A program made the position numbers and the translations under genes. Below, in pieces: positions 15,781 to 31,754 of a stretch of 42,469 nucleotides of DNA. The notes under the pieces were generated by a model. It searched no databases, was not told the origin of the DNA, and was given only the letters and a program-made list of their open reading frames with translations. This DNA is from Peptococcaceae bacterium (lineage in GTDB: Bacteria > Bacillota > Peptococcia > Peptococcales > Peptococcaceae). The DNA is taken from positions 1 to 42,469 of the forward strand of contig JAFYPD010000034.1 of NCBI GenBank assembly GCA_017547685.1, read 5' to 3'. The number at the start of each line of letters is the position of its first letter. Position 1 is the first letter of the stretch.

Positions 15781-15927
15781 ATGTATATCTCCAATCCATG
15801 ATTCGCTATATTTAACGATTTAGTATATCACATTTTGTTATGAATTACTATCTATGATTTCCAATATTCTATACCCGACACCAATACTTCAGATATACGC
15901 ACAGCAGCCGGTTATACATAATTATAA

Positions 15928-16103
15928 AAAGCAGAATCAGGCAGTATTGCGAGCGGCGCCTTCCGAATTGAGGCGGATATTGACGCCGGCTGTTCGACTG
16001 TGACGGATTGGCGGTTAGGCCAAATCCGGCAAAAGCGAACAGGCAAGGAAATGTCCGAGGAGCTGAGGGAAAGCCGTCGAGCAAACTGCCTGATTCTGTT
16101 TTT
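15928..16103 (+). repeat. ~170-nt structured element, copy 1
   Basis: Flanked by AAAAA and TTTTT, with a perfect 13-bp outer stem (AGAATCAGGCAGT 15933-15945, ACTGCCTGATTCT 16085-16097). Inside: conserved hairpin CGCCT-N9-AGGCG (from 15957), CTGTTCG/CGAACAG arms, conserved GACTGTGACG, an inner hairpin GGATTGG/CCAAATCC, and conserved GAGCTGAGGGAAAGCCGT near the end. The minus-strand copy at 19784-19952 shares the core but has different yet still complementary outer and inner helices. It fills most of the gap between the lipoprotein stop (16111) and queA. Either strand could act as a terminator. The remaining 15781-15927 is the queA upstream region. Confidence 0.75.
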
Positions 16104-19401: not shown

Positions 19402-19575
19402 AGCTCTGGAGATTATAAAAATTCCCCGTCGCCGGATTCTCTGCAGCAGAGCGGAACCAGACCGTCAAGGGCCTTGTGCCGCAGGCATGCTGCGCACCCT
19501 TGACTGGCTGATTCCAGCTATGCTATCAGAAAAGCAAGCGACGGGGATTATATGATTCTCCAGAGCCGTTTTTTT
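19402..19575 (+). ncRNA. ssrS: Probable 6S RNA
   Basis: The region folds as one long hairpin. The closing stem pairs 19403-19433 with 19537-19566 (GCTCTGGAGA...CCCCGTCGC against GCGACGGGG...TCTCCAGAGC). A large two-sided internal bubble follows (about 19434-19458 and 19508-19536), each side with a small hairpin (CTCTG-CAG-CAGAG; CTGG-N6-CCAG). An apical arm comes next: GTCAAGGG (19464-19471) with CCCTTGAC (19497-19504), capped by a GCAG/CTGC hairpin. A T7 tract after 19568 acts as terminator. Length (~170 nt) and bubble architecture match 6S RNA, which mimics an open promoter and binds sigma70 RNA polymerase. In Bacillus subtilis a 6S gene lies in the same general neighbourhood as ruvAB and queA. 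No conserved primary sequence was checked. Confidence 0.65.
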
Positions 19576-19594
19576 GTTTTTATTCTTTCTACTT

Positions 19595-19714
19595 TTATTC
19601 TAATTCATGTCCGCATTCCGGATAGAAATTCGGCACCTTCCGTTTCCGCAACCCAAACCGCTGTTTGCAGTATGGACATTTGTAATAGGCCAGTTTCAAA
19701 ACTTGTTTTGTAAT
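19595..19714 (-). pseudogene. Small zinc-ribbon ORF without a normal start codon
   Basis: A 39-codon frame reads ITKQVLKLAYYKCPYCKQ, continues FGLRKRKVPNF and ends YPECGHELE: a zinc-ribbon pattern with a CPYC pair and a second knuckle in which the first Cys is Tyr. A fine site (AGGGAGG) lies upstream, but the ATG it serves (19718) opens a different frame that ends after 37 codons. In the ribbon frame the only nearby start would be ATT at 19714. It is therefore either frameshifted at its start, initiated at ATT, or a decayed gene. It converges on the 6S-like RNA. Confidence 0.5.
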
Positions 19715-19783
19715 CCATGACAGACCTCCCTTTATCCATGAGCATTTTCAACATCCACATAATCTTTCACGCATAATAACACC

Positions 19784-19952
19784 GGAAAAACGGAACAAAC
19801 AGTTTGCTCAACGGCTTTCCCTCAGCTCGTCTGATACAGCTTTGTTTTCTGTTCACCTTAGCCGAACCTGCGGTTCGTCACAGTCTGAACAGAAAACGCT
19901 GTATCCGCCTCAATTCGGAAGGCGCCGTTCGCAATTCTGTCTGTTCCGTTTT
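19784..19952 (-). repeat. ~170-nt structured element, copy 2
   Basis: Read on the minus strand: AAAAA, outer stem CGGAACAGACAG with CTGTTTGTTCCG, then TTTTT. The core TTGCGA-CGGCGCCTTCCG, hairpin CGCCT-N9-AGGCG, GACTGTGACG and GAGCTGAGGGAAAGCCGT are shared with copy 1 (15928-16103). Inner helices differ but pair: GATACAGC/GCTGTATC, TTTTCTGTTCA/TGAACAGAAAA and hairpin CGAACC-GCA-GGTTCG, where copy 1 has GGATTGG/CCAAATCC. It lies in the 472-bp gap between the zinc-ribbon frame and the DUF2905 gene. The flanks 19719-19783 and 19953-20050 show nothing else. Confidence 0.75.
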
Positions 19953-20050
19953 TATTTCTTTTCAGAAATCAATATAATAAATTATTGAACTGGCGTATCT
20001 TTTGCATAAGACGTTTGTATATTTATTTTCCACATGCCACCGCAGGCGCA

Positions 20051-20180
20051 GGAAAATTTTCCGAAGCGCGTTTTTCTGCGCAAGTGAGCAAGGCAGCTTT
20101 CAAATTTGTGCCGCGCCGTGTACAAATGGTACGCAAGCAAACAAATTTGGGAGCAACACAGCTATACGGAAATTTAACGT
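20051..20180 (-). repeat. Structured 3'-UTR repeat, copy B
   Basis: Follows the DUF2905 stop (20187) directly. Inner arms CAAATTTGT (20101-20109) and ACAAATTTG (about 20141-20149) enclose a hairpin of GTGTAC and GTACGC; outer arms carry GGAAAATTTTCC and CGGAAATTT. Copy A at 11483-11597 has different middle arms but the same shared blocks (TTTCCGTAT, TTGCGTACC, GCCTTG on the minus strand) and the same position, directly after a stop codon. It is longer than copy A by an extra hairpin (GCGCG...CTGCGC, about 20066-20081). Confidence 0.6.
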
Positions 20181-20186
20181 GTCTGC

Positions 20187-20408
20187 CTATCTGTTGAATA
20201 AGTTTAGGATAAAACTCAGTACCACACTCATCACAATACAGCTCACAATCGGGAAGTAAAAGCCTCCGCCGTTTTCTCCTTTGATGACAATATCGCCGGG
20301 CAGATTGCCCAGGCTGATGAAGCGGCTCAGAATGATAATCACCGAACCGATTAAAATGGCACCCAGGCCAAGCATAATCAGCATTTTTCCTAATTCGGTT
20401 CCGTTCAC
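20187..20408 (-). CDS. DUF2905 family membrane protein
   Basis: 73 residues from a GTG at 20408 that overlaps the ruvB stop (GTGA) and follows GGGGGA; a longer frame from an ATG at 20423 lies inside ruvB and lacks a site. Two transmembrane helices (about 9-30, [20 protein letters not shown], and 51-70) flank the conserved loop [21 protein letters not shown], the DUF2905 signature. In many Firmicutes this family sits directly after ruvB, as here. Function unknown. Confidence 0.9.
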
Positions 20409-30455: not shown

Positions 30456-30483
30456 CATTTAAATAAAAAACGATATTATTTGC

Positions 30484-30597
30484 TCTTATCCAGAGAGGTG
30501 GAGGGACTGGCCCGATGAAACCCGGCAACTGGCCTTGCAGGAATGTTCCTGAAGGCGCTGTGCTAAATCCTGCAGATTTAAATTCTGGCAGATAAGA
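30484..30597 (+). promoter_or_regulatory. SAM-I riboswitch (S-box)
   Basis: P1 pairs CTTATC (30485-30490) with GATAAG (30591-30596). Conserved S-box elements are in order: CCAGAGAGGTGGAGGGACTG, GGCCCGATGAAACCCGGCAAC, a P3 stem (GGCCTTGCAGGAATGTTCC region), GTGCTAAATCC-TGCAG and the 3' P1 strand. It binds S-adenosylmethionine and lets the downstream terminator form. It controls the methionine importer metNIQ that follows. Confidence 0.95.
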
Positions 30598-30617
30598 ATG
30601 GCTTACATGAACAACGT

Positions 30618-30653: not shown

Positions 30654-30728
30654 TCATCCTGTATCCTGCTCCAGCAGAGTCACCGTCTCATACCTTTGTA
30701 TATGGAACAAATGAGAAAGGAGTTCTCC

Positions 30729-31754
30729 ATGAATCAGCCTATTATACAGATTAAAGATCTCTATAAAAGCTACCCGGGTAAAAACGGACCGGCCGTGGCA
30801 CTGGAACATATCAATCTGGATATTTATCCAGGCGAAATTTTCGGCATCATCGGTTTGAGCGGCGCAGGGAAAAGCACCCTGGTGCGCTGCATCAACTTTT
30901 TAGAAAAACCGACCTCCGGCACTGTGATTTTCGATGGGCAGGATTTATCCGCGCTGTCTCACAAGGAGCTTTGCAAAGCGCGTCAGTCGATGGGTATGAT
31001 TTTCCAGCAGTTCAACCTGCTGATGCAGCGTACCGCATTGCAGAATATCTGTTTTCCAATGGAAATCGCCGGTATCAGAAAAGAAGAGGCGCAGGCTCGC
31101 GCCCGGGAACTGTTAAAAATTGTAGATATGGAAAACAAAGAAGATTCCTATCCATCTCAGTTATCCGGTGGTCAGAAGCAGCGTGTGGCAATCGCCCGCG
31201 CACTGGCAACCAATCCGAAAGTACTGCTGTGTGACGAAGCTACCAGTGCATTGGATCCGAAAACCACCCGTTCTATTTTAAATCTGCTGAAAGATATCAG
31301 CAAACGGCTGGGTATCACCGTCATCATCATCACACACGAGATGGCGGTTATCGAAGAAATCTGCCAGAAGGTAGCGATTATTGACAACCACGTGATTGCA
31401 GAAACCGGCAGTGTTTCCGAAGTTTTCTCCCGGCCAAAGCATGAAGCAACCCGCCGTCTGGTGTTCCCGGAAGACCACAAACTGCCGGATTTCTCTGCGG
31501 CTCACTGTTATCGCCTGATTTTCGACGGTACTGCTGCCATGGAACCGGTTATCGCCAATATGATTATGGAATGCAAAACACCAGTGAATATTCTGGCGGC
31601 CGACACCCGCGTGATGGAAGGACAAACCTTCGGTCAGATGATGATTCAGATTCCGGATGACGTGAACCAGGTAAATCTGGAGCGCATTCTGGTATATCTG
31701 GAAAATAAACATGTTACAGTAGAGGAGGTATCCGGATGCTCGAACTTATCGTAA
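30729..31754 (+). CDS. metN: Methionine ABC transporter ATP-binding protein
   Basis: 341 residues from the ATG at 30729, set by AAAGGAG (a longer frame from 30696 has no site). ATPase domain: Walker A GLSGAGKS (42-49), [29 protein letters not shown] and IITHEMAVIE. The C-terminal NIL domain (from about 260; CYRLIFDGTAAMEPVIANMI, MIQIPDDVNQVNLERIL) is the methionine-sensing domain of MetN that gives transinhibition. Overlaps metI by 19 bp. Confidence 0.96.
   Translation: MNQPIIQIKDLYKSYPGKNGPAVALEHINLDIYPGEIFGIIGLSGAGKSTLVRCINFLEKPTSGTVIFDGQDLSALSHKELCKARQSMGMIFQQFNLLMQRTALQNICFPMEIAGIRKEEAQARARELLKIVDMENKEDSYPSQLSGGQKQRVAIARALATNPKVLLCDEATSALDPKTTRSILNLLKDISKRLGITVIIITHEMAVIEEICQKVAIIDNHVIAETGSVSEVFSRPKHEATRRLVFPEDHKLPDFSAAHCYRLIFDGTAAMEPVIANMIMECKTPVNILAADTRVMEGQTFGQMMIQIPDDVNQVNLERILVYLENKHVTVEEVSGCSNLS

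Follow-up and report, generated by a model that had tools for sequence, protein, structure and literature searches.

The window analysed here, the whole stretch of 42,469 nucleotides, carries two copies of a short element, one on each strand, whose parts are listed in Table 1 and whose ends were set by including the paired A5/T5. Each copy is predicted by RNA folding to form one long hairpin of nested stems, with energies of -89.2 kcal/mol (z -7.1) for copy 1 and -80.7 kcal/mol (z -8.3) for copy 2, and none of the dinucleotide shuffles of the two copies reaches the native folding energy. The internal loops are conserved between the copies, while the bases of the stems differ with the pairing kept, which confirms the nested hairpin with a shared core and sequence-changed, still-paired helices described in an earlier sequence-only reading of this DNA; all the blocks and helices quoted there were located in both copies. 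On the 5' side of the conserved internal loop of copy 1, a tandem G.A is possible beside the conserved T.G pair. Small zinc-ribbon-like reading frames, possibly pieces of one gene, were noticed by eye on both sides of copy 2 (window 19500-20250, minus strand).

Table 1. Coordinates in the window of the two element copies and of the parts of copy 1.
Feature	Position	Strand	Basis or remark
Element copy 1, whole nested hairpin	15926..16103	+	covariance-model core 15947-16085
Outer stem, 5' arm (AAAAAGCAGAATCAGGCAGT)	15926..15945	+	sequence; pairs with 16085-16103 in the RNA fold
Base stem, 5' side (TTGCGAGCGGC)	15947..15957	+	partner 16073-16084; family-wide covariation (helices 1-2)
Conserved internal loop, 5' side (GCCTTCCGAATTGAGG)	15958..15973	+	holds the conserved T.G pair
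Middle stem (CGGATATT)	15974..15981	+	partner 16050-16057 (AATGTCCG); fold and alignment
Inner stem (CTGTTCG)	15990..15996	+	partner 16036-16042 (CGAACAG); fold and alignment
Conserved apical-side internal loop (ACTGTGAC)	15997..16004	+	opposite 16028-16035 (GGCAAAAG)
Apical hairpin (GGATTGG...CCAAATCC)	16005..16027	+	exchangeable module
Conserved internal loop, 3' side (AGGAGCTGAGGGAAA)	16058..16072	+	family alignment
Outer stem, 3' arm (ACTGCCTGATTCTGTTTTT)	16085..16103	+	sequence and RNA fold
Element copy 2, whole nested hairpin	19786..19953	-	covariance-model core 19803-19934

A match to a known Rfam family had been named beforehand as something that would lower the novelty of the element, and no described RNA family was matched, either by copy 1, even at E<=10, or at seven other loci, where Rfam 15 gave no match above the curated cut-off overlapping a copy. 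A miRNA-family match over the copy at locus L046 was sub-threshold (E=0.08) and was taken as chance. Within the window, Rfam matches a single feature, a SAM riboswitch (30483-30598, plus strand, 78.7 bits) located upstream of the ORF 30696-31754.

The two copies belong to a much larger family of elements of about 130-180 bases, each a nested hairpin between genes. By blastn, about 13 near-complete copies, together with fragments and internally deleted copies, were found in the genome of origin (G000). A covariance model, as had been proposed, was built from 20 copies (R1) and then from 110 matches (R2), and at E<=0.01 it detected about 66 copies in this genome rather than two, 59 in G005, at least 145 in G004 (150 candidates scored) and 34, 19, 13, 13 and 9 in G001, G006, G002, G007 and G003, respectively, the number of places being possibly somewhat overstated by these counts as a near-palindromic hairpin can match both strands. 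The element is, thus, present in all eight genomes of one uncultured gut-bacterial genus, represented by draft metagenome-assembled genomes (MAGs) named Peptococcaceae from the ruminant gut. No match occurred in the other five genomes of the family, in any of the 38 class-sample genomes outside the genus, which include these five, or in a further 148 of the phylum sample; altogether, approximately 175 non-genus genomes were searched and gave none. The samples share some members, and because a larger search scores fewer candidates in each genome, weak relatives could escape. In 84,980 species genomes scanned by pattern, the sole matches were "Peptococcaceae bacterium" MAGs from the gut of goat, cattle and deer, and the viral contigs, phages and plasmids searched gave zero matches. 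Since the element-bearing relatives are named Peptococcaceae, placed by the NCBI lineage in Bacillota; Clostridia, the assumption of the sequence-only reading that the host is one of the Negativicutes was not supported.

The distribution of the copies is that of a dispersed repeat. More than 30 copies in G004 form one unit with a sharp right end (GATATTGTCCG; CTGCAACAGATATTGTCCG), at which it stops abruptly against unrelated flanks, and with a blurred left end, where the similarity fades over about 50-60 bases; a short non-coding unit is, as in ERIC-like MITEs, dispersed into unrelated flanks. Likewise, as in the REPIN type, the extragenic hairpins are dispersed as singles and inverted doublets, and tandem arrays occur as well, such as the three copies at L103:655-1171 with a period of 194 bases. 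Between the syntenic gene pairs of G000 and G005, the element is found in both genomes at L003/L010, L025/L014, L068/L082 and L069/L079, and in one genome only at L073, L078, L116, L138, L139 and other sites, at one of which a truncated half-element persists as a remnant. Base-exact empty sites were not obtainable between these two genomes because their flanks are too diverged. Direct repeats of at least 7 bases at the element ends showed no excess over mismatched-pair controls, a few tandem or local cases aside, a 2-base TA duplication being beyond the reach of this test owing to the uncertain left end. Terminal inverted ends are present, with a sequence that differs between the subfamilies, and in searches of G000 and G004 with the element, in which the partial matches were traced in part, none was identified as a parent transposon.

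Several further features accompany the copies. A gene for a DUF4143 ATPase lies between two inverted copies in G000, while the syntenic site of G005 holds a single copy and lacks the gene; it is one of two DUF4143/AAA_14 ATPase genes that adjoin element copies, at L069:2490-3881 and L026:718-1998. In G004, parS-like palindromes (TGTTTCACGTGAAACA) keep a nearly fixed spacing of 31-37 bases to one end of a doublet form of the element (for example at L087:3696, L089:3172, L091:3212, L096:3351 and L099:2957). The parS-like sites number 3-72 per genome of the genus, with 72 in G004, and are often clustered; as a part of the element they were rejected, their association being confined to the G004-specific doublet.

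The gene arrangement around the 101 placeable copies, with ORFs called crudely by length, was convergent for 30, tandem for 63 and divergent for 8, as compared with 30, 120 and 54, respectively, among the background gaps of 150-800 bp in the G000 and G005 stretches, so that divergent gaps are depleted of copies (convergent versus divergent, Fisher p=1e-5). In the tandem gaps the orientation is unbiased, 33 copies being co-directional with the genes and 30 opposed to them. The neighbours are ordinary unrelated genes (queA, ruvB, M3 peptidase, BacA, GTPase, RND pump), none of those identified being common to the surroundings of the copies, and no conserved promoter block was recognised upstream. 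It might be proposed from this placement that the elements are bidirectional terminators or stabilisers of 3'-UTRs, retained because of this function and duplicated along with their genes: the copies lie at the 3' sides of genes and avoid divergent gaps, copies 1 and 2 and several others in G000 end in an A-run, a stem and a T-run, and the internally deleted copies retain the outer stem and the T-run. However, a T-run of at least 4 at the predicted end of the outer stem was found in just 16 of 98 copies, a rough count as RNAfold stems often extend into the flanks, and this is too rare for a family-wide terminator role; some copies, such as that at L073, moreover, lack a T-run although they lie between closely spaced genes of the same direction, and the conserved internal loops would be unnecessary for a terminator, which makes this explanation rather unlikely. 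The A5/T5 boundaries that had been reported for copies 1 and 2 are, accordingly, true of these two but not of the family.

The pairing was assessed in 109 distinct rows at 33 pairs, with the structure taken from the first model. The alignment had been fitted to the model, a procedure that favours the structure, and among its rows are a few strong copies read on the opposite strand. Standard pairs occupy 92.9% of the pair cells, as against 73.2% in shuffled alignments and 35-47% with the partners slid; double-changed cells number 728 against a shuffled mean of 212, changes on both sides occur at 27 of the 33 pairs, and for covariation the rows score 0.496, the shuffled ones 0.176. Given the effect size and the slid controls, there is little doubt that the structure is preserved despite the model-fitted alignment, and the covarying helices proposed from two copies are strongly supported by the 109. 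RNAalifold recovered only 13 pairs from the 110-row alignment. Many near-identical copies lacking covariation had also been named beforehand as something that would lower the novelty; many copies were indeed found, but with the covariation present. Unpaired bases are conserved genus-wide as well, in the TTC(C)GAA / TGA(G)GGA loop, which holds a U.G pair in 76 of 101 cells and U-A in the rest, and in a second loop, CGTGNC / GNCWAAG, beneath the apical hairpin.

Part of the apparent covariation is, however, inherited in the form of pre-paired modules, because inner hairpins have been replaced whole between identical arms. Two different inner hairpins occur in G004 between arms that are 95% identical; both fold well, and they are 61% identical to each other (53% after shuffling). 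The sorting into two types was approximate and misclassed a few copies, which would, if anything, make the difference appear smaller than it is. The orthologues L003 and L010 of G000 and G005 are nearly identical save for a replaced apical hairpin. The covariation is real, but to take it alone as the hallmark of selection, the sense in which it was first put forward, claims too much, and what it says about selection on any single copy is weakened. The module exchange does not account for the conserved unpaired bases or for the strand bias described below.

A fold of a single strand tolerates G-U and not A-C, whereas a process acting on double-stranded DNA or treating both strands symmetrically would treat the two alike. 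Among 69 representatives at less than 80% identity, G-U was counted 113 times and A-C 30 times, or 72 against 30 with the fixed U.G column left out; the ungapped helices (alignment columns 1-4, 54-59 and 72-75) gave 29 against 6. An aligner symmetric towards mismatches yielded the same direction, which was plainest for the base stem and the inner stem (12 against 2), with counts near level in the middle stem (14 against 13), where the A.C cells are concentrated at one position of one subfamily. A whole-element count of 101 G-U against 68 A-C, in which loop mismatches were mixed with the stems, was superseded. The excess on the plus strand, roughly 2-5:1, is moderate evidence that this strand, as RNA or single-stranded DNA, is what folds.

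The strong plus-strand covariation with G-U over A-C and the genus-wide conservation of the internal-loop bases could also be expected of a multicopy trans-acting structured ncRNA, all or some copies of which would be expressed and whose product would bind a protein through the internal loops. Conservation in place points the same way at one orthologous locus, where the element is 96% conserved and the flanks 70-74%, near the shuffled level; this hints at constraint on the copy, but the pattern is not repeated by the other orthologous pairs. Since there are at least 145 copies in one genome, no orientation preference and no common neighbour, and since the presence at syntenic sites varies, a stand-alone ncRNA gene is unsupported, and with the truncated and internally deleted copies and no upstream promoter block recognised, the multicopy version appears unlikely too. 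Of the "undescribed ncRNA or RNA-like mobile hairpin" suggested at first, the mobile hairpin is, thus, the better reading. Covariation arising from DNA-level processes alone (quasi-palindrome template switching, gene conversion and module exchange), without selection, is very improbable, for although whole hairpins are replaced blockwise with the arms unchanged, the unpaired loop bases stay conserved instead of being corrected to pairs and the mismatches are biased by strand to G-U, unexpectedly for symmetric DNA correction.

Most likely, the family consists of mobile nested hairpins confined, among the genomes searched, to one genus and is a new kind of small mobile repeat, and both copies in the window are probably short non-autonomous hairpins of the ERIC/REPIN-like sort, recognised by their fold and mobilised in trans. 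The element spreads through the genomes of one genus, settling mostly in intergenic space and rarely between divergent genes. A trans-acting factor, probably a transposase or recombinase reading the folded single strand, would copy or move it through a single-stranded intermediate. The parts preserved are the fold and the loop bases of one strand, and not the terminal sequence, so that the outer arms and inner hairpins can be swapped as paired modules; such swaps were observed at one syntenic locus and within G004, and recombination between copies is their presumable cause. Some copies, when transcribed as part of a neighbouring mRNA, for example copies 1 and 2 with their A5/T5, would probably act incidentally as 3'-UTR hairpins or terminators, and not family-wide. 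As for the enzyme, the Y1/RAYT transposase (PF01797) was found in one of the eight genus genomes, G005, and in neither of the copy-rich G000 and G004, an absence that is not absolute in draft assemblies, and reverse transcriptase in three of the eight drafts; both were therefore rejected as a universal partner, neither route fitting the whole genus. A more specific version, tentative at best, is that the element moves as or via folded RNA or single-stranded DNA, that a new enzyme reads the internal loops and not the termini, and that evolution proceeds by the exchange of nested modules.

By analogy, the element would work like ERIC-type MITEs and REPINs. With the REPINs and REP-BIME mobilised by RAYT it shares the abundance of extragenic palindromic hairpins in each genome, their occurrence as inverted doublets and in clusters, compensatory stem changes, which have been described for these DNA-mobile hairpins, and the lack of an encoded protein; unlike them, it is longer, has no fixed termini comparable to the REP 16-mer, the conserved parts being the internal loops, and occurs where RAYT/Y1 is absent from seven of eight genus genomes (PMC3116915). 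The ERIC, NEMIS-Correia, RUP and RPE MITE-like repeats are likewise intergenic, non-autonomous units of 100-200 bp with RNA folding as a long stem-loop, but the present element lacks a detectable target-site duplication (at least 7 bases tested), and its terminal inverted repeats vary among copies, whereas the internal loops and nested modules are conserved (PMC2229807). No sequence relative was found. Intergenic structured repeats of Borrelia plasmids, proposed as RNA motifs, also show compensatory changes of base pairs, while the present element is much more numerous and occurs throughout the drafts of an entire genus (PMC2674063). The large multicopy bacterial ncRNAs of Rfam 15 are similarly structured and covarying, but the element has no Rfam match.

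Covariation among repeats, as this family cautions, can be inherited when entire hairpins are exchanged, and taken alone it does not prove that an ncRNA is functional. Bacteria commonly carry small palindromic repeats, and for most families of these, to our knowledge, the mover is not known. In the present family more than 350 copies have been detected, and with a fold at single-pair resolution, a strand polarity and natural module swaps, they offer rich data on what is recognised.
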